From contig VGHE01000015.1 of the NCBI GenBank assembly GCA_016868315.1, positions 1 to 48,796 on the forward strand: DNA of 48,796 bases, in the 5' to 3' direction. The DNA comes from Betaproteobacteria bacterium (GTDB lineage Bacteria > Bdellovibrionota_B > Oligoflexia > Silvanigrellales > Silvanigrellaceae). The notes under the pieces were generated by a model that saw nothing but the letters and a program-made list of their open reading frames with translations, did no database searches and was not told the DNA's origin. Numbering within the stretch: the first letter of the stretch is position 1; each line of letters begins with the position of its first letter. A program made the translations under genes and the position numbers. Below, in pieces: positions 13,960 to 27,567 of this stretch.

Positions 13960-14838
13960 ATGACGCACCAGAAGTTTCTGAGCGCCTGTTTCATGATTGC
14001 CCTTGGTCTTTTTTTTGTGGTGGGTTGCTCACGGAATCAATCAGATCTTCTAACTATTTACGCTCGAGACGATCGAGCAACACTCGCCACAGCCGAACCA
14101 AATCTTGCTGCGTTCGCAGGCTCGGTTGCACTCCTCACGCACTCTTTCAGAATGAAAACTGTGGGAGAAAGCTTCTTCAAGATACCAGCACCGAAACTTG
14201 GGGATTTTTTCGGGCTTTGCCAAGAGGAGCCGTTTTTTGAAGAGCGCGTTGTGGGAGACTGCACAGGATTTCTGGTGAGCGAGACGCAGTTGGTCACTGC
14301 AGGTCATTGCATTTCAAGCCATGCGGAGTGTGAACAGCGCAAATTCGTTTTTAATCATCATACCGCAGGACAGGAATTATTTGCGACACAGGATGTTTAT
14401 TCTTGTCGAAGAATCATTTCTTCGCTCCCAAAAAGCAAAGGTGATCTGGTTGTTGTCGAACTCGATCGCCCGAAGACGAACCCATCGGGAAGTAGACTCT
14501 TTAACGTTGCGAGCGTTGCCAGCACTCAACACACAGAGCTCGTGACGCTGGGTTATCCCTCAGGCATATCACTTAAATCGGCGCCTTTGGAAGGCAGAAG
14601 ACATTCCCGCGACACGTACTCGTTTCGTGGAAGAGCAGATGTCTCGGGTGGTTCATCGGGATCACCGCTTTTTAGTCCTGAAACAGGTACACTTGAGGGT
14701 GTGGTCTTGGGTGGCGAGAATGATTTTGTTTGGGATGCGAGCGCGTCTTGTAGCCGCAGCAAAGTTTGCACAGCTGACACATGTAGCGGCGAGCGATTTG
14801 CAAGCCGTGAAGCGCTCTTAAATCTCTTCAAAATGTAA
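13960..14838 (+). CDS. Trypsin-like serine protease lipoprotein (S1 superfamily)
   Basis: 292 residues with lipobox VVGC (C23). The full catalytic triad is visible: His in LVTAGHC (H116), Asp in GDLVVVELD (D162) and Ser in SGGSSGSPLF (about S233). DCTGFLVSETQLVTAGHC is the standard strand before the His. The GSSGSP form of the Ser motif is nearer the V8/glutamyl-endopeptidase branch than trypsin proper. The protein should act in the periplasm or on the cell surface, anchored by lipid. A weak AAGGAGG lies before the ATG. It follows the small exported protein and converges on the ABC-F gene. Confidence 0.9.
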   Translation: MTHQKFLSACFMIALGLFFVVGCSRNQSDLLTIYARDDRATLATAEPNLAAFAGSVALLTHSFRMKTVGESFFKIPAPKLGDFFGLCQEEPFFEERVVGDCTGFLVSETQLVTAGHCISSHAECEQRKFVFNHHTAGQELFATQDVYSCRRIISSLPKSKGDLVVVELDRPKTNPSGSRLFNVASVASTQHTELVTLGYPSGISLKSAPLEGRRHSRDTYSFRGRADVSGGSSGSPLFSPETGTLEGVVLGGENDFVWDASASCSRSKVCTADTCSGERFASREALLNLFKM

Positions 14839-18224: not shown

Positions 18225-18485
18225 ATGACTTCTCGCCCACAAACGAACTCAGGGCAGATCCGCCGCTCCAAGGGAACCCTTCTCAAGGTGAGTCAATTTC
18301 TTTACGTTATCGAGGGGCAGTCGTTCTCCATTCAGCTTCAAGAGTCACCCGGGAACATGTTCACTGCCTATGCCGAGAGCACTTCAGACCCTCACGAGGC
18401 TTTTCGCCCAGTCAGTGGCTCAAATCTTGAAGACGTCTTACAATCAATCACCCATGAAATAGATAAAAAGGTGAGCAAATGGTGA
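18225..18485 (+). CDS. Small hypothetical protein, first gene of the NamZ operon
   Basis: 86 residues if ATG 18225 is used (a GTG at 18168 would add 19 residues). I do not recognise it. It is hydrophilic with no signal peptide or membrane helix; the middle (LKVSQFLYVIEGQSFSIQL) looks like beta-strands and the C-terminus (LEDVLQSITHEIDKKVSKW) is helical. Its stop overlaps the start of the NamZ-like gene by a few bases, so it is probably translated and coupled to it. GGAG 11 nt upstream of 18225 is rather far. Confidence 0.55.
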   Translation: MTSRPQTNSGQIRRSKGTLLKVSQFLYVIEGQSFSIQLQESPGNMFTAYAESTSDPHEAFRPVSGSNLEDVLQSITHEIDKKVSKW

Positions 18486-19750
18486 ACTCAGCGATTGATA
18501 GAGTGCGAAACGATGCAAATCTTCTCAATCAATTGGGAAAGATCGGACTCGTGACCAACCAGGCCTGCACAACGCAGGATTTCGTCCCGACTGTGGACGT
18601 CGTGGTCAACGCTCTCGAAAAAGCACGCGGCTCAACCCTCACTGCTGTTTTCGGTCCACAGCACGGCTATGGACAAACCGAGCAAGACAACATGATCGAA
18701 ACACCAGACAGCACCCTGGTGATGCCCTCCGGAAAAACTGTTCCCCTTTATAGCCTCTATTCCAAGACCCGCATTCCCACACCAGAACAACTTAAAAACG
18801 TCGACACACTCGTCGTTGACCTTCAAGATGTCGGCTGCAGAGTCTATACGTACATGCTGACCCTAGCTGGTTGTATGCGTGCCGCAGAGAAGGCGAAAAA
18901 GAAGGTCGTTGTGCTCGACAGACCCAATCCATTGGGCCTGAGTCAACTGAAAAGCCCAGGAGACTTCACCCAAGGCAACAACCTGGACATGCGCTGGGAG
19001 AGTTTTGTCGGATGGTACTCCATTCCGATGCGTCATGGCCTGACCCTCGGAGAGCTCGGTAAACTTTTCCATGCCACCGACAAGATGAGCATTCCTTATG
19101 AAGTTATCACGGTCGATGGGCTGAAACGCAGTACGCCTTTATCAGTGCTTTCCCAGCGACGCTGGACGCTACCTAGCCCGAACCTTCCAACCTGGGAAAC
19201 GGCATTCTGCTTTCCATCTTTCGTTGCGCTTGAAACGACCATGATCAGTGAAGGTCGAGGAACGACTCTTCCCTTCCAAACGGTTGGAGCTCCAAATCTG
19301 CCAGCTCAGCGCATGCTGAGTGCATTTTCAGATTGGAATAGAACCGCCCCTGAGCATCTGCGCTTCTCAGGGCTCAAGTTTCGAACCCACGAGTTCAGAC
19401 CAACCTTTAACAAGCACCAAGGGGCACTTTGCAAGGGGTTTCAAATCCACGTCGAGAATCCAGAGCACTGCAATACATTTGCTTTAGGGGTTCTATTCCT
19501 CGCCGCGGCCGCATCGGACTTTAAAGAATTCCAATGGAAAGGACCGGGCTACGAATACAACCTTGTGGATCCTCCGGTTCACCTTGTGCTTGGGAACAGC
19601 CGCTGGCGCGATTTCTTTGATAGCTTGCGCGGACGTCCATGGAGCGCTGTTCTGCAGGCCGAGCTCGTAGACATGCTCAAATGGTCAGAGAACGATGCAA
19701 AGGCATTTGAAGAAATGAGCTCTGCTTACCATCTCTACACCGAGAACTGA
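18479..19750 (+). CDS. namZ: Exo-beta-N-acetylmuramidase NamZ-like (DUF1343)
   Basis: 423 residues covering the whole DUF1343 family: GLVTNQACTTQDF near the start, FGPQHGYGQTEQDNM, PLYSLYSKTRIPTPEQL, DTLVVDLQDVGCRVYTYM, VLDRPNPLG, MRHGLTLGELG and NLPTWETAFCFPS. Characterised members (NamZ) remove N-acetylmuramic acid from the non-reducing ends of peptidoglycan fragments. No signal peptide is visible, so it may act in the cytoplasm on recovered muropeptides, unlike exported NamZ proteins. It is translationally coupled to the small gene before it and 13 nt from the membrane protein after it. Confidence 0.88.
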   Translation: MVNSAIDRVRNDANLLNQLGKIGLVTNQACTTQDFVPTVDVVVNALEKARGSTLTAVFGPQHGYGQTEQDNMIETPDSTLVMPSGKTVPLYSLYSKTRIPTPEQLKNVDTLVVDLQDVGCRVYTYMLTLAGCMRAAEKAKKKVVVLDRPNPLGLSQLKSPGDFTQGNNLDMRWESFVGWYSIPMRHGLTLGELGKLFHATDKMSIPYEVITVDGLKRSTPLSVLSQRRWTLPSPNLPTWETAFCFPSFVALETTMISEGRGTTLPFQTVGAPNLPAQRMLSAFSDWNRTAPEHLRFSGLKFRTHEFRPTFNKHQGALCKGFQIHVENPEHCNTFALGVLFLAAAASDFKEFQWKGPGYEYNLVDPPVHLVLGNSRWRDFFDSLRGRPWSAVLQAELVDMLKWSENDAKAFEEMSSAYHLYTEN

Positions 19751-19763
19751 GGACGCGTGCAGA

Positions 19764-21839
19764 ATGTATTCACACAAGCGCTCATTCACAGGCCAATCCT
19801 CACGATCGCTCGGCGCGCTCTTTGATGTTCCATTCCTCACAACAGTGGCGGCACTTGCCGCACTCTTTTCCTTTGCTCATTCAGCTCTCACCTTCTATAA
19901 GCTCGACCAGCACGTTGGAATGCTCCCCGAGGCAATCAATCAACTCCCGAAAGCGGAATTAACAGCAGCACTCAAAAGCAGCGCTTCTCTCATTAATTAC
20001 GAATTAATTTTCTCCACCTGGATTGGACTGTGTATTCCACTTGTCGCCATGAGCGTCGCAGTGCGCTGGGCTTTGGCATCTTTGAGAGTCTCGGTGCAAC
20101 GCTCGGTGACTTTGTGTTACCTCATTGTTTTTTATTTTTGCAGCTTCATGACAGTTGCGTTGCACAACCCTGACTGGACCCCGGGAAATCTTCTCGTGCG
20201 CTTATTAGCACCATTGGGCGAAGGATTTTTTGAAAGTCTGCGAGCGCTGCTCTGGATGAGCCTTGTAGCCGCTGCAATCTATGCACTGGCTAAGAATGCA
20301 ACCTCAAAGCTCAACCGCAGCGTTCGTCTGACGAGCGTCGCCCTGTTGCTCGTCGGGCTATTGATGCTCGACTATCTGCATTCAAAAAATTCACATTCAG
20401 TTCATGAATCTTTTCTGAAGAATCCGGCATCCACAACATTTATTTACATTTTGCCTGGCCTCAAGCGCACCGATGTGCCTCTGGCTCTGGCAGACAAGAA
20501 ACTTATTACACTCAGAGAACAACTGACCTCATTCCAGGAAATTCATCCGAGTACTCCGAGTTTACTTGGCCAGTTTGCAACGAGTCTTCTGGGGACAGAA
20601 CCGGTTTCCCACGGACTCAGACACGACCTCATGGATGAAGAAGTTATTTCAAATGTGAGAACAACTTTCTCATCTCGTTTTAAACAATCAAAAAGCGGTT
20701 TTTTTGCAACTGCAATCGCTGGCCCAGCGCCATTACCGGCCGTCTTGGCAGCGTCCCTCCCCGGCGAACGCTGCGGACAGGAACTCACCCAGTTGGCACG
20801 CCTTGGACATTTTCAGGCTTCGGTTATCCCCTACAGCCTGACACCCCGGATTCTCGACCGTTGGCTGCATCCACAGCTTATCTGCTCGAGCAGATTCCTG
20901 ACCACCGACCAGCACCTTTTTTTAGCGCACCATCGAATCATTCAACACCTGCATGAGCCTGGCTCCAAAACTTTTCTTGTTTGGCTCGCACCCGGTTTTG
21001 AAAACCAGACAACGCAAGCCTCTGCCGACACCAAAATCGATACCTGGTCTAAGTCAACCTTTATGGTGCACAGCGTGCTGCAAAACCATCTCGATTTCCT
21101 CGACTCAAGTGGTCTAAAAAATTTCCACCAGACGTTCTTTCTCGGATTGGCTGATTCCGAGTCCACCTCAACTGCTTTTGTACGATTCGATGGTCAGACA
21201 AAATCGGAGCTGACTGACCTAACCCTGGAATCACCAGGACGCCGTGCTCAATCTTCCGTGGCAGAACTCTTGCGCGGTCAAAGCCAACAGGAAGAAAAAG
21301 ATTCGCCATTTTTTTATTCCGAATACAACCTTGATCCCAAAGACATAAGGATTTCATCTTTGAAGCCGGATGTAGTGGAGCTCAAGACAACTGGCGCAAA
21401 ACGTACCCAGTTACGCATCGACAACACACTCCTTCGAAAGGTGATCATCAACGCTCGCCGACACGTGATTTGTCAAAATGTTGGTTCCGCAACGAGCAAA
21501 CGTTTAAACGTCCGAGTCAGCCTGGCACTGCGCGGCAACGAGTCGCGCCTGCCGCAACTCATGTATGAAGATTTTCAAAATACAGACATCCCGTCCCAGA
21601 AAGACGCAATGACCCTTGATGACTGTTTGAGCAATGCGCGCGAGAAACTTATTAAAAGTATTCTTCAGGACGTCACACTGCGCGAAAGCTCAGCCTTCAA
21701 AACGCTGCTGATGGGATTGCCGGTCAAATCCATCATGACTTCATCGAGCGTTGCTGAACCGAATCCTGAATCGGAAGAGCTCTTTGACCAGTCGACGTCG
21801 GCACTTCCCGATGCCGAGAGCGAGGAAACCGAGGAATGA
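19764..21839 (+). CDS. Polytopic membrane protein with degenerate sulfatase-like domain
   Basis: 691 residues. There are about five hydrophobic helices in the first ~215 residues, then a large soluble, probably periplasmic, domain. That domain follows the sulfatase/alkaline-phosphatase superfamily outline: TFIYILPGLKRTDV where active enzymes have an Asp-containing first strand, PSLLGQFATSLLGTEPVSHGLR like the PSxASLLTGxYPxxHGV block, and FFLGLADSEST where a DHG metal-binding motif is expected. The metal-ligand Asp and the DHG are missing, so it looks catalytically dead. The C-terminus is acidic and low-complexity (EESEETEE-like). It overlaps the next gene, another such protein, by ATGA. The fold call is inference from motif order. 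Confidence 0.6.
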   Translation: MYSHKRSFTGQSSRSLGALFDVPFLTTVAALAALFSFAHSALTFYKLDQHVGMLPEAINQLPKAELTAALKSSASLINYELIFSTWIGLCIPLVAMSVAVRWALASLRVSVQRSVTLCYLIVFYFCSFMTVALHNPDWTPGNLLVRLLAPLGEGFFESLRALLWMSLVAAAIYALAKNATSKLNRSVRLTSVALLLVGLLMLDYLHSKNSHSVHESFLKNPASTTFIYILPGLKRTDVPLALADKKLITLREQLTSFQEIHPSTPSLLGQFATSLLGTEPVSHGLRHDLMDEEVISNVRTTFSSRFKQSKSGFFATAIAGPAPLPAVLAASLPGERCGQELTQLARLGHFQASVIPYSLTPRILDRWLHPQLICSSRFLTTDQHLFLAHHRIIQHLHEPGSKTFLVWLAPGFENQTTQASADTKIDTWSKSTFMVHSVLQNHLDFLDSSGLKNFHQTFFLGLADSESTSTAFVRFDGQTKSELTDLTLESPGRRAQSSVAELLRGQSQQEEKDSPFFYSEYNLDPKDIRISSLKPDVVELKTTGAKRTQLRIDNTLLRKVIINARRHVICQNVGSATSKRLNVRVSLALRGNESRLPQLMYEDFQNTDIPSQKDAMTLDDCLSNAREKLIKSILQDVTLRESSAFKTLLMGLPVKSIMTSSSVAEPNPESEELFDQSTSALPDAESEETEE

Positions 21840-24331
21840 CCAAACGCACCAAACGACGCCAACACATTTCAAAAAGCAGCCAGAATGAAATCATCGTTGC
21901 GAAAGTTGCAGCAGCTGCAGCGCTGGCACTTGCCATTCTGATTGGTCTCTCGCTGGGAACGAGAACCTCACAAACCAACCTCTCTCCTGTACACCGCCAA
22001 TATGAGCAAGTCTCGAGAAGCACACGAGGCTGGGAGCCAGATGCAGCTTTGCAGAGCGAAAGCGCAAAGACTGATCTTAGGGCGCATGCTGGTTTTCACT
22101 TCGAATGGCCTGCCCGACTCAATGCACCACAGCTGAAGAGTGAACGGCTGCAGAACCCCGAGAGAATCAAAAACATAGACACACTTCTGAAGCTTGGACG
22201 TTCACGGGCAATACTGCGCGCCACGCCAGACACTCCGAACAAATTCCTTCTTGAAGAAAGGCTCGCCAAGAATGGGCAAGTGACTATCCACAAGGACGTT
22301 TACGTTCTTGTGCCCGGAGAGAAGATAAGCATCCACTTTGATACACTCTCGACTCTCGTGCGCCAGTGGAAGCTCCGCGTGCGCACTCTCGCGGTCACAC
22401 AGGACAGGCGCGACTCTACCCTCCAGGCTGCAGTGGGCTTCTCAAGCGATGCTGCAACGACTGTAGATATTGACCCGCATGGAAACCACACAGATCTGGA
22501 TATTCCTGCCCTAACAGAGTTTACCCGCCGTGGAGAGAAGAACTTCGCCATCGAGTGGCCCAAATCTGCATCAGGTCTTCTTGTTCTTGAGGGTTTTCAG
22601 CCGGGAGTTGTTGAAGCTGAGACTCGCGCGCAGTCGCCCAAGACTCTTATTGTATATATCGACAAGATGAATGCGCCATTAACTCGCCTGACAAAAACAC
22701 TGAGCACCATCAACAAAGCAACCGGCAACGAGGATAAGCAGAATTACTTTAGTAACGTCATTCCTCCTGCTGAGTCATATCATTTATCACGGGACGCACT
22801 CATTACGGGTCGAACACCGGTCGAGTTGGGTGCTTCTCTGAAAAATGAAAAACTGCGAAGTTTTCTCTCTCCGCAGAATCAGCTCATCAACAAGATGATA
22901 AGTAAGGGTGGTTCCGCTCGACGAATCCAACTCCGCGCTCAAGAAAAATGTGGCGAGATTTGCAAACAAAACGCGATTACAGCGGCTCTCAACAGCGTAT
23001 TCACATCTGAGTTAACTCTTCTTCGAAGGGAAGAATTCGCGAGCACGCAGTCCTACCTGCGGAGTGCAGAGTTTATAAATGATCCAGGACTTCTCTTTGT
23101 TGAGGTTGAATTTCCACAGGAACATCTTCGACTCAATTGGGATACAATCAGTCAGAGTGAGAGCTCAACCACACGCTGGATAACATCAGGATTGCTTGAG
23201 TTTTTCGGAAAGAAGGATCAGCAGCTCAAAGGTGAAGAAAAAATTGGACAGCTTGACGTTTGGCTTTCCAGTCTGATGGAGTCTTTCCTCTCATCAACTA
23301 ATCCTGCGAATATTGCTCTCATTCTGCATGACAACGGCTCGCCCATCCAGCTCTCAGCTGAAGCCGAAGAGCGCAGGGTGCTCAAACGTGGCGAGGCTTT
23401 GCTTTATCTGCACAATGCTGGTGGAAGTGCTGCGAACGAGAAAAATGCAGAAACTCAAAAAAACGAGAACCCAGCCTCTCTCCAAAACATCTTACGTGTC
23501 TTCGAAAAGTCAGCTCACCAGGCATTGCCTGCTTCAGAGCAAGACTCTCTCTTGAAGGCTGCTCAAAACGACGAAGAACCGATCGCGCAAATTCAAAGTC
23601 AAACTTACACAACTCTGACGCGCGACGGCTGGCTGATTGATCCTAAACACGCGACCAATGGCAATAACATTAAATATGCATTTCGAGCATTCCCCGAAAA
23701 GATTCAGCTTGTACAAGAGCAGGCCAACGCGGAGAAAAAGAAGAGCCGATTAACCGGGCTGCATATTACTCTCACGAGCAGCAACATGCGCGACGAAATT
23801 ATCGAAACAGAACTGAGTACGTCGCTCGGTGCAGTGGGCTGCGAGTCACAAACAGAGAATGCTAAAATCAAGGAACTTACACTGAAAGAAGCTCCCTTCG
23901 GTACAGAAACTTCGATGACACTCATCGGACGACGACCCACCCAAGCTCAATGGCATATTTTCTGTTTATTCGAAGGACGGATCTCAAATTCCACATTCAT
24001 GAGATTGCGCTTCAAACTGAACGGCCAAGTCATTGAAAGAGAGAAAATAGGGTTGAGCGAATTTGCTCTTCCTGTGCGGGGGTTTCTGTGGCGTTCTCCC
24101 GACACAATTGAATTGGTAGGTGCGCAGATTTTGGATGCAACGGTTGCACTGGGCGCGCCTGATGCTGAGGCAGCGAAGCCAACTTCGGTTGTCCTCTGGA
24201 GCGAAAAACTACCCAGTGGTATCGACGAACCGCGTGCAACATTCTTGCTTGAGCAAACCTCAACCGCAACTCACTTGCCCACACAGTCTCCTGCAAGCGA
24301 ATCCGAAGAACGCTTAAGCGAAAAGGAATAA
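21836..24331 (+). CDS. Membrane-anchored protein with degenerate sulfatase-like domain
   Basis: 831 residues. A single transmembrane anchor (about 22-42) follows a basic N-terminus, so the bulk should be periplasmic. About 260 residues in, a degenerate sulfatase outline appears: KTLIVYIDKMNAPLTRL (first strand, Asp kept), ESYHLSRDALITGRTPVELGA (the block that normally holds the nucleophile), LDVWLSSLMESFLSSTNPANIALILHDNGSP (here DHGE is replaced by HDNG) and GEALLYLHN. Flanking N- and C-terminal domains of about 250 residues each are unknown. It is coupled to the preceding pseudo-sulfatase and followed 10 nt later by xseA. A structural or carbohydrate-binding role is more likely than catalysis. 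Confidence 0.6.
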   Translation: MTKRTKRRQHISKSSQNEIIVAKVAAAAALALAILIGLSLGTRTSQTNLSPVHRQYEQVSRSTRGWEPDAALQSESAKTDLRAHAGFHFEWPARLNAPQLKSERLQNPERIKNIDTLLKLGRSRAILRATPDTPNKFLLEERLAKNGQVTIHKDVYVLVPGEKISIHFDTLSTLVRQWKLRVRTLAVTQDRRDSTLQAAVGFSSDAATTVDIDPHGNHTDLDIPALTEFTRRGEKNFAIEWPKSASGLLVLEGFQPGVVEAETRAQSPKTLIVYIDKMNAPLTRLTKTLSTINKATGNEDKQNYFSNVIPPAESYHLSRDALITGRTPVELGASLKNEKLRSFLSPQNQLINKMISKGGSARRIQLRAQEKCGEICKQNAITAALNSVFTSELTLLRREEFASTQSYLRSAEFINDPGLLFVEVEFPQEHLRLNWDTISQSESSTTRWITSGLLEFFGKKDQQLKGEEKIGQLDVWLSSLMESFLSSTNPANIALILHDNGSPIQLSAEAEERRVLKRGEALLYLHNAGGSAANEKNAETQKNENPASLQNILRVFEKSAHQALPASEQDSLLKAAQNDEEPIAQIQSQTYTTLTRDGWLIDPKHATNGNNIKYAFRAFPEKIQLVQEQANAEKKKSRLTGLHITLTSSNMRDEIIETELSTSLGAVGCESQTENAKIKELTLKEAPFGTETSMTLIGRRPTQAQWHIFCLFEGRISNSTFMRLRFKLNGQVIEREKIGLSEFALPVRGFLWRSPDTIELVGAQILDATVALGAPDAEAAKPTSVVLWSEKLPSGIDEPRATFLLEQTSTATHLPTQSPASESEERLSEKE

Positions 24332-24341
24332 CGTCTCCATC

Positions 24342-25877
24342 ATGGCACCACGACGAACGCTGACACAGCAAGGTGATTTGCTGAAATTGGGCGGAGACAC
24401 CTTCACCATCAAAGAGGAACTCAAGAAACTGGGGGCACGGTTTGATGGTGCACAGAAATGTTGGTTCTTGAGTTCCAGCGAAAGTGTTCTTAAGAAGCTT
24501 GAGTTTATGGGATTTATCCTCCCATCGAGTTTTCCAACGCCTAGCTCGCTTGATTCACCTGAGTCAACAACACCCACTTCAGATGCTTTGGCTGACACAG
24601 ATACGCTCACGGTGACACAATTCACCCAACGTGTTGAAGCCATCTTTCAAAGACACTTAGCATTCGATTTTTGGATTGTTGGAGAGATTTCATCTCTCAA
24701 GAGTTCGAGTGGGCACGTCTATTTCGATCTTGTTGAACCAGAACAAGAGCGTGCACTCCAGACAGGTCGAGCAGCCTCGATTCCTTGTTGTCTGTGGGCT
24801 GGAAAAATACGCCAGCTCGGCGATAAGTTTACCGGCTTGCCACTCGCCGAAGGAATCAAAGTCAAACTCAAAGTGCACTGTGATTTCAGAAAAGAGGGCG
24901 CGCGCCTCAACTTGATTGTCGATGATCTCGACCCACACTACACGTTGGGTGACCTCGCGCTTCAAAGAGAAAACATAGTGCGCGAATTAAAGCGGCGTGG
25001 GCTCTACGATCGCCAGCGCATGATGGCACGTTGGCCTGAATTTCCCATGCGGATTGCCCTGCTCACGGCGGCTGGTTCGCGCGCACAAACTGACTTTTTC
25101 GACGAGCTCAAGCTGCCCCACATGTCTTTCCAAATCACACTCTTTGATTGCCATATGCAGGGAGAACAGGTCGAGGGTGATATCAGCAAAGCTCTCAATG
25201 AGGTTTCCCGCAACAGTAGCGGATTTGATTGCGTGGTCATCACACGCGGGGGTGGTTCGCGGCTCGATCTGCGCTGGTTCGACAATCTTGAGGTGGCCAA
25301 GGCTATTGCCTATTGCCCTCTACCAGTATTGACCGCCATTGGGCATTTCGAGGACGTCAGCATTGCCGATGAGGTTGCGGCAGTTGCAGAAAAGACCCCA
25401 ACCGGCGCTTCACGTTTTCTCACGCAAACAGTGGCACAGAATTTCGAGCGCCAGTTGGCTCGACTTGAGCGCGCTTCAACTGCAGTGCGCGGGCGCCTGC
25501 TGCGCGAAGCAAAAACTCTCGAACGCACCGATCTTTTGCTCGTTCAGTCGGCGCAAAGACGCTTGGAACGGGAAAAAGCGAAAAACGCAGAGGGTGAGCG
25601 TGCGCTCCGGCTTGTACAAAGAACCGCGGCACAGCCCCTCCGCCTCGGCTACGCGGTCATGCGTGCGACAAACGGCAAGGCAATGACTGCAGATGACTTT
25701 CTCACATCTGAACTGCCGGGTACGGTGCAAATTGAACTGCACAGCCCCCAGAAAAACGCCCTAGTTTCGCTCGAAATTCAAATTGCTGCCGTGAAACAGA
25801 GAGTTTCAACGGCCGGAACTTCACATCCAGTGGAGCACCCGCTATCTCCCCAGACAAAGGATCACAGTCAATCATGA
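24342..25877 (+). CDS. xseA: Exodeoxyribonuclease VII large subunit with extra N-terminal domain
   Basis: 511 residues. Residues ~85 to 440 are XseA: OB-fold start TLTVTQFTQRVEAIFQ, FWIVGEISSLKSSSGHVYFDL, then the catalytic domain with RIALLTAAGSRAQTDFFDEL, CVVITRGGGSRLDLRWFD, PVLTAIGHFEDVSIADEVA and PTGAS. The enzyme degrades single-stranded DNA from both ends with XseB. The first ~80 residues (LGGDTFTIKEELKKLGARFDGAQKCWF in part) form an additional domain like the short KxxLKxLGAxWDxxxKxWY modules found in other DNA enzymes, not usual in XseA. It is coupled to xseB by an ATGA overlap. Confidence 0.95.
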   Translation: MAPRRTLTQQGDLLKLGGDTFTIKEELKKLGARFDGAQKCWFLSSSESVLKKLEFMGFILPSSFPTPSSLDSPESTTPTSDALADTDTLTVTQFTQRVEAIFQRHLAFDFWIVGEISSLKSSSGHVYFDLVEPEQERALQTGRAASIPCCLWAGKIRQLGDKFTGLPLAEGIKVKLKVHCDFRKEGARLNLIVDDLDPHYTLGDLALQRENIVRELKRRGLYDRQRMMARWPEFPMRIALLTAAGSRAQTDFFDELKLPHMSFQITLFDCHMQGEQVEGDISKALNEVSRNSSGFDCVVITRGGGSRLDLRWFDNLEVAKAIAYCPLPVLTAIGHFEDVSIADEVAAVAEKTPTGASRFLTQTVAQNFERQLARLERASTAVRGRLLREAKTLERTDLLLVQSAQRRLEREKAKNAEGERALRLVQRTAAQPLRLGYAVMRATNGKAMTADDFLTSELPGTVQIELHSPQKNALVSLEIQIAAVKQRVSTAGTSHPVEHPLSPQTKDHSQS

Positions 25878-26122
25878 ACCCCTCAAAAACATTGTCCTAC
25901 AAAGAACTCCAGAGTGAGCTCCAAAGCATTCTGCATGCCCTCGAACAGGATGGAACTTCTCTCGACGACATTGGACAGCTGTTGAAATCGGGTTTCGAGA
26001 CTGTGGATACTCTCAAGGGTCGCCTCACTGAGGCAGAAGCCCAGATTGAAAACATCATTTCGCTGCGGCACAACACCCAACAAAAGACGCTGCTCCCCAA
26101 AGGTGAAGGAGAATCCGAATAA
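25874..26122 (+). CDS. xseB: Exodeoxyribonuclease VII small subunit
   Basis: 82 residues, typical length. It shows the XseB helical-hairpin pattern: LSYKELQSELQSILHALEQDGTSLDDIGQLLKSG in outline, then a second helix LKGRLTEAEAQIENI. The start overlaps the xseA stop (ATGA) and the stop TAA overlaps the pyk start (TAATG), so subunit production is tightly coupled. Confidence 0.95.
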   Translation: MNPSKTLSYKELQSELQSILHALEQDGTSLDDIGQLLKSGFETVDTLKGRLTEAEAQIENIISLRHNTQQKTLLPKGEGESE

Positions 26123-27567
26123 TGACATCGGCAACCAACAACACGCGCACGAAAATCGTCTGCACTCTGGGTCCATCGAGCAGCAACCGAGAAAGCATTT
26201 CCGCTCTCATTGATGCTGGAATGAACGTCGCACGGCTTAATTTTTCGCATGGTGAACACGCAACCCATGCACAAAACATTGCATACATTCGCGAACTATC
26301 CCGCGAAAAAAACAAGCCGGTAGCTATTTTGCAAGACCTGCAAGGACCAAAAATCCGCGTCGGAAAGTTGCGTGGAGGGTCAACCACTCTTACAAAGGGA
26401 CAACACATCACGCTTGTTTTCGGACTAGAGCAGACCGACGACAACATTCCCATCGATTACCGCGAGCTGGCTGCTGATACTCACGTCGGTGCGCAGATTC
26501 TTCTCGACGATGGCCTGCTCGGAATGACGGTCGTGGGCATCCGTGATGGCCTCGTTGACTGTGAAGTTGTTCACGGTGGCTTGTTGAAGTCTCGTAAAGG
26601 CGTAAATTTCCCCGACAGCAATCTTTCTATTCCATCAACAACTGAGAAAGACACGCGCGACTTGCTTTTCGGTGTCGCACAGGGTGTTGACTATGTCGCA
26701 CTTTCCTTTGTGCGCACAGCCGGCGATGTGCAAAAGCTCAAGCAGATGTTGCGCGCACTGGGCTCGGATATCCCGGTGGTTGCAAAAATCGAGATGCTCA
26801 GCGCGGTTGAGAACATCGACGAAATTTGCACTGTCACCGACGCGGTGATGGTTGCGCGCGGAGACCTTGGTGTCGAATGTGGCTTTGCAAACGTCGCGGC
26901 TTTCCAGAAAAAGATTGTGCGCTCGGCACGCGCCCATGGCAAACCCGTTATCGTTGCCACTCAGATGCTCGACTCCATGATCGAAAACCATGTGCCGACC
27001 AAAGCTGAAATCTCTGACGTTGCGAACGCGGTTTTCGACCTTGCTGACGCCACCATGCTTTCAGGCGAAACAGCGTCGGGGCGTCACCCCAGCCATGTGG
27101 TCAATACCATGCGCGACATTCTTGCACGTGTTGAAAATTCGGGGATGCTTCTCCCAGGCGAAGAGAACGCTCGTTTGTTCACATCAAACAAGACCCCAGA
27201 AGTGGTCGCCCGCACGGCAGCGGAGCTCGGTGATGCCTGTAAAGCAGCTGCAATTGTGTGCCTAACCCTGACGGGCAATATCGCGCGCACAGTTGCCAAA
27301 TATCGGCCACAGGTTCCTGTCATTGCGCTCAGCCCGCGTCCCGATGTGGTGCGTAAACTGAGCTTGGTGCGTGGGGTAAGCGGACTGCAGAATGCTATGT
27401 TCTTCGATACCGACGGTGCCCTGCACGAGATTGCAAAGTCGATAGTTCAAAAAGGAATGGCAAAAGAGGGCGATTTGTTGGTCATCACGGGTGGCATACC
27501 ATTGGCCTCGATGCAGCCGACCAACCTAATCAAGCTGCACCGTGTCTCAAAAGAGGACGTACTGTAA
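26122..27567 (+). CDS. pyk: Pyruvate kinase
   Basis: 481 residues, full length. Landmarks: TKIVCTLGPSSSNRESISALIDAGMNVARLNFSHG in outline at the N-terminus, LQDLQGPKIRVG, the B domain, VAKIEM with the catalytic Lys, MVARGDLGVE, VIVATQMLDSMI and SGETASGRHP, then the regulatory C domain. It converts phosphoenolpyruvate and ADP to pyruvate and ATP, the last step of glycolysis. It is the last gene of the plus-strand operon. Its 3' end overlaps the 3' end of the convergent methyltransferase gene by 21 bp. Confidence 0.98.
   Translation: MTSATNNTRTKIVCTLGPSSSNRESISALIDAGMNVARLNFSHGEHATHAQNIAYIRELSREKNKPVAILQDLQGPKIRVGKLRGGSTTLTKGQHITLVFGLEQTDDNIPIDYRELAADTHVGAQILLDDGLLGMTVVGIRDGLVDCEVVHGGLLKSRKGVNFPDSNLSIPSTTEKDTRDLLFGVAQGVDYVALSFVRTAGDVQKLKQMLRALGSDIPVVAKIEMLSAVENIDEICTVTDAVMVARGDLGVECGFANVAAFQKKIVRSARAHGKPVIVATQMLDSMIENHVPTKAEISDVANAVFDLADATMLSGETASGRHPSHVVNTMRDILARVENSGMLLPGEENARLFTSNKTPEVVARTAAELGDACKAAAIVCLTLTGNIARTVAKYRPQVPVIALSPRPDVVRKLSLVRGVSGLQNAMFFDTDGALHEIAKSIVQKGMAKEGDLLVITGGIPLASMQPTNLIKLHRVSKEDVL

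Follow-up and report, generated by a model that had tools for sequence, protein, structure and literature searches.

Two overlapping genes of an aquatic member of the Silvanigrellaceae, found in the stretch of 48,796 nucleotides analysed here (the window), encode proteins A and B, which probably constitute a non-catalytic pseudoenzyme unit of the inner membrane that resembles YejM/PbgA, has diverged from a tandem pair of sulfatase-fold proteins (C/D) and senses or binds a component of the cell envelope. An earlier note on this DNA described A and B as linked membrane proteins with inactive sulfatase folds, and this description is supported by the predicted folds, the lost catalytic residues, the gene linkage and the purifying selection reported below. 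Because inactive folds, a linked membrane pair and purifying selection occur together, the binding or scaffold role that the note proposed for A and B is reasonable.

Organization of the locus

The genes of A and B belong to a run on the + strand (positions 18225-27567) in which a small gene and a NamZ-family gene are followed by A and B and then by xseA-like, xseB-like and pyruvate kinase-like genes; no overlap or gap between neighbours exceeds 13 bases (Table 1). According to the list of open reading frames, the frames of A and B share 4 bases, and the gene positions and the A/B overlap given in the note are borne out. Promoter or terminator signals above those of shuffled sequences were not detected at the locus, nor does the composition show a break pointing to recent import. 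A gene for a trypsin-like protease (Pfam Trypsin_2) lies a few kb upstream, beyond a flagellin gene, at 13960-14838.

Table 1. Genes of the window locus and examples of intact C/D pairs
Feature	Location	Positions	Strand	Basis and remarks
Small gene, 86 aa	window	18225-18485	+	ORF; 3' end overlaps NamZ start
NamZ-family gene (NamZ_N + NamZ_C), 423 aa	window	18479-19750	+	ORF and Pfam; PDB relatives 4k05, 4jja
Protein A gene, 691 aa, 5 TM helices	window	19764-21839	+	ORF, hydropathy, predicted structure, profile comparison, residue table
Protein B gene, 831 aa, 1 TM helix	window	21836-24331	+	ORF, hydropathy, predicted structure, residue table
xseA-like gene (exonuclease VII large subunit), directly 3' of B	window	24342-25877	+	named on sequence and context rather than by family search
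Pyruvate kinase-like gene (pyk), closes the conserved run	window	26122-27567	+	named from sequence, not from a family search
Intact C/D pair	L111	10416-15526
Intact C/D pair	L168	5432-9873

Fold and membrane topology of A and B

Neither protein is recognized by sequence searches: A and B match no Pfam or NCBIfam model at E<=1, including the sulfatase family PF00884, whose matches in the genome of the window are confined to three other loci, and the LapC/YejM model NF038282 (NCBIfam), and a search of PDB sequences with both as queries returned nothing relevant. Their folds were approached through AlphaFold models built from family alignments (14 rows for A, 11 rows for B), with moderate mean model confidence (pLDDT 63 for A and 57.5 for B). 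Compared with the PDB (Foldseek and VIA), both models match the sulfatase/alkaline-phosphatase superfamily, A with a VIA Z of 16.7 over 250 residues (4.1 A) and B with a Z of 10.7 over 226 residues (4.2 A). The matched structures include sulfatases, phosphodiesterases, phosphoethanolamine (PEtN) transferases and YejM/PbgA, chains of which are among the Foldseek matches of A; for B, all 50 of the 50 VIA rows listed are sulfatase, phospho-transferase or YejM-type chains (Z 8.5-10.7). On the strength of these models, A and B are predicted to be sulfatase/alkaline-phosphatase folds, as the note had suggested from motif order; structure prediction, which it had proposed as a check with a different fold counting against the idea, gave the sulfatase fold for both proteins.

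Hydropathy places about five transmembrane (TM) segments at the N-terminus of A and one at that of B. In A, the five predicted helices are followed by the sulfatase/alkaline-phosphatase-fold ectodomain (residues ~220-600), while in B the N-terminal TM segment is predicted to precede a beta-rich region (~99-256), the sulfatase-fold domain (~259-560) and a C-terminal beta region (~639-761). The soluble domains of both proteins are predicted to be periplasmic. Conserved cysteines (C337, C374 and C570 in A; C669 and C710 in B) would fit an exported, disulfide-bonded domain. The beta regions of B have weak PDB matches to carbohydrate-binding modules, which were not used as evidence.

Loss of the catalytic residues

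The active-site columns of A and B were read from profile alignments to intact relatives. A carries P231 at the column of the first metal-binding Asp, L267 at that of the nucleophilic Thr and D464-S465 at the DHG motif; B keeps D276 at the first metal Asp and has Y315 at the nucleophile column and D499-N500-G at DHG. The note's readings of the DHG motif as ADSES in A and HDNG in B are correct. Of the other metal ligands that it calls lost, the first metal Asp is missing from A (P231), whereas B of the window's genus retains it as D276; in B of the larger genus g5 this position is K, N or R. Similarly, D499 of B is present in the window's genus and lost in g5.

Across the family, the nucleophile column of A is occupied by L, V, E, Q, D, M, N or I and its metal-Asp column by P, N, E or L, the nucleophile column of B is occupied by Y, F, K or A, and the DHG-equivalent block is conserved in neither protein. 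Moreover, among the ectodomain columns conserved at 90% or more there is no His and there are few acidic residues; the family conserves a Thr or Ser at A264. The catalytic columns vary without pattern across the family, and loss of catalysis in both A and B is the natural reading of these alignments.

Distribution, linkage and selection

Within the class, profile searches over 58 and 56 genomes found A in 13 genomes, all belonging to one family (Silvanigrellaceae), and B in 11 of these 13; searches set at the level of the phylum covered the same 58 genomes. B is absent from three genomes of the family, in two of which the contig ends inside A; the third, G013, has neither A nor B, and NamZ adjoins xseA there. 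The neighbourhood in relatives, which the note had named as a further check, proved to be conserved: NamZ is adjacent to A in 13 of 14 family genomes (in one, the contig holds no more of NamZ than its end), and A is adjacent to B in 11/11 genomes where the contig continues, A being split over two contigs in one. The adjacency of B and xseA is likewise conserved in most of the family, and A/B are linked to xseA and pyk as tightly as to NamZ, in one same-strand run. The small gene, which the note had counted into a four-gene unit, does not belong to the conserved core of the cluster; its homologues occur only in G001 and G005, so that it is present in 3 of 14 family genomes.

Comparison of G008 with G011 gives a dN/dS ratio of about 0.10-0.11 for A as well as B, and comparison of G007 with G012 gives 0.10 for B; in most comparisons dS is near saturation. 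Such values of about 0.1 indicate that the A and B genes are maintained by purifying selection. The protein sequences diverge fast relative to pyk, the frames are open over ~570-940 aa wherever a genome has a complete copy, and a G-x-R motif is invariant in A.

The NamZ neighbour

The gene preceding A encodes a protein with both domains of the NamZ family (GH171, DUF1343; Pfam NamZ_N, 1.4e-59, and NamZ_C, 8e-30). Unlike the solved relatives 4k05 and 4jja, which read GPEHG or SPEHG, the window protein reads GPQHG, with Gln in place of Glu. By hydropathy, NamZ proteins of the window and of the class show no recognisable signal peptide and no typical hydrophobic N-terminus, and NamZ of the window is for this reason predicted to be cytoplasmic, unlike the A/B domains, whose predicted place is the periplasm. 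NamZ proteins of the class that combine the lack of a signal peptide with GPQHG were seen at L017, L019, L028, L031, L037, L039, L040, L042, L045, L047 and L048. Of 38 genomes, 36 carry NamZ, while A is confined to one family within the class. The link between NamZ and A/B is only positional, and functional coupling is not supported.

A second tandem pair and the origin of A/B

A search of the family with PF00884 led to a second tandem pair, C/D, located beside an nth-like gene. C has five TM segments and about 740 aa, and D has one TM segment, about 965 aa and beta-rich flanks. In genus g5, the metal Asp, the Thr nucleophile and DHG are all intact in both proteins, which match PF00884, and C also keeps GHG (Table 1 gives examples of intact pairs). 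Searches with C and D showed that several more families of the class possess such a pair; 5TM + 1TM pairs with an intact Thr were seen at L111, L112, L114, L115 and L164-L168. In some genomes C/D have ribosomal protein genes or an HD-domain gene as neighbours, and two proteins that lack a Pfam match come after the pair. In G039, a match to a C homologue (C35, 12670-14820) contains one in-frame TAA. In the window's genus the pair beside nth is degenerate too; that of the window's own genome (L161 6894-11481; G000 C1, about 334893-339480) has L and S at the nucleophile columns and LPP and ERG in place of DHG.

Profile comparison relates A to active C with an hhalign score of 76 (P 2e-8), against 24 or less for reversed or locally shuffled controls, whereas A scores no more than 27 with D, LtaS-like and cytosolic sulfatases; the global alignment of A and C extends through the TM region. 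A specific relationship of A to C, a new finding, is thus indicated at the level of sequence profiles. The mutual match of A and B is weak (29-30, with controls reaching 22), and the score of B against D (19.5) lies inside the controls. A/B and C/D also share gene order, the 5TM/1TM layout and the 4-base overlap. Most likely, therefore, the A/B unit is a diverged paralogue of C/D. As the B-D profile match is not significant, the paralogy of B and D would rest on fold, layout and gene order.

Alternative explanations

The proposal of the note that A and B take part in a cell-wall complex, in which they would scaffold or guide a NamZ that trims peptidoglycan, draws on the adjacency of NamZ and A in 13/14 family genomes. 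Yet xseA and pyk are equally linked to A/B, few family genomes have the small gene, NamZ has no recognisable signal peptide, its GPQHG replaces the Glu of the solved relatives, and genomes throughout the class, as well as G013, have NamZ but not A/B; such a complex is therefore improbable, and this part of the note is not upheld. It is still harder to regard A and B as decaying pseudogenes of a tandem pair whose frames have stayed open by chance. Their catalytic residues are gone and their proteins diverge fast in comparison with pyk, but frames of this length wherever the copy is complete, a dN/dS of about 0.1, conserved cysteines and the invariant G-x-R of A make decay very improbable.

The same purifying selection speaks for enzymes that have kept the fold and rebuilt the active site, and the retention of D276 and D499 of B in the window's genus and the family-wide Thr or Ser at A264 point in this direction. 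However, members of the family differ freely at the nucleophile column, the first metal Asp column of A and the DHG columns, B of g5 has neither D276 nor D499, and the best-conserved ectodomain columns hold no His and few acidic residues, so that continued catalysis appears quite unlikely. As to ancestry, A and B might have arisen separately from sulfatases rather than through duplication of C/D, as the B-D score, which does not exceed the controls, and the weak mutual match of A and B would allow. This origin is unlikely, though somewhat less so than a rebuilt site, because A matches C and no other tested sulfatase group, and gene order, TM layout and overlap would need to have arisen twice.

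Proposed mechanism and comparison with known systems

In the favoured reading of A/B as a non-catalytic membrane unit, A would be an inner-membrane protein with five TM helices and B its single-TM partner, each bearing a catalytically dead ectodomain outside the cytoplasm. We infer that a lipid, glycolipid or glycan of the envelope may occupy the pocket that once received the substrate or may bind to the TM domain, and that A and B may form a complex which relays the signal by protein contact. Such a relay would resemble that of YejM/PbgA/LapC, in which LPS is sensed and LapB is sequestered; a YejM-like regulatory step, considered by itself, is a tentative suggestion. A sensing or scaffold role could also be the outcome of a longer history, in which a C/D-type transferase pair was duplicated in the family and then lost catalysis twice, family-wide at the copy next to NamZ and, in the window's genus, at the copy next to nth. 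As both copies were kept, the main job of the pair would have been non-catalytic envelope sensing or scaffolding. This scenario is conceivable but somewhat doubtful.

A/B belong to the same fold superfamily as the phospho-transferases LtaS, EptA and MCR and, like these, combine a TM domain with an exported domain. LtaS/EptA/MCR and C/D share a Thr nucleophile, whereas A/B are devoid of catalytic residues, and the LtaS-like multi-TM sulfatases of the same family have no profile match to A. A close parallel in architecture is C/D, with the same gene order, a first gene encoding five TM segments, a second encoding one TM segment and beta-rich flanks, and a 4-base overlap; unlike C/D, A/B have neither an intact active site nor a PF00884 match. 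Literature on bacterial pseudosulfatase pairs was not found among open-licence papers.

YejM/PbgA/LapC, which sets LPS levels in enterobacteria, is the main known case of a sulfatase-fold enzyme turned regulator and the best functional precedent for A/B. It responds to LPS by sequestering LapB with its TM domain, an example of non-catalytic regulation by membrane contacts (PMC9356133); the YejM precedent also draws on PMC7018646. YejM keeps Thr302 and its metal contacts and has been reported to be a Mg phosphatase whose activity depends on Thr302 (PMC7576196); hence, a fully dead protein has no clean precedent in YejM. A resembles YejM/PbgA/LapC in having five TM helices followed by a sulfatase-fold domain, and the fold match extends to A and, more weakly, to B. 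In contrast to YejM/PbgA/LapC, which is one protein with Thr302 and a Mg site, A/B are a tandem pair, and A has L267 and P231 at the corresponding positions. A/B would represent a paired version of such a regulator in a distant lineage, in which the intact C/D of relatives make the step from enzyme to pseudoenzyme traceable at two loci and through which envelope sensing far from the enterobacteria becomes testable.
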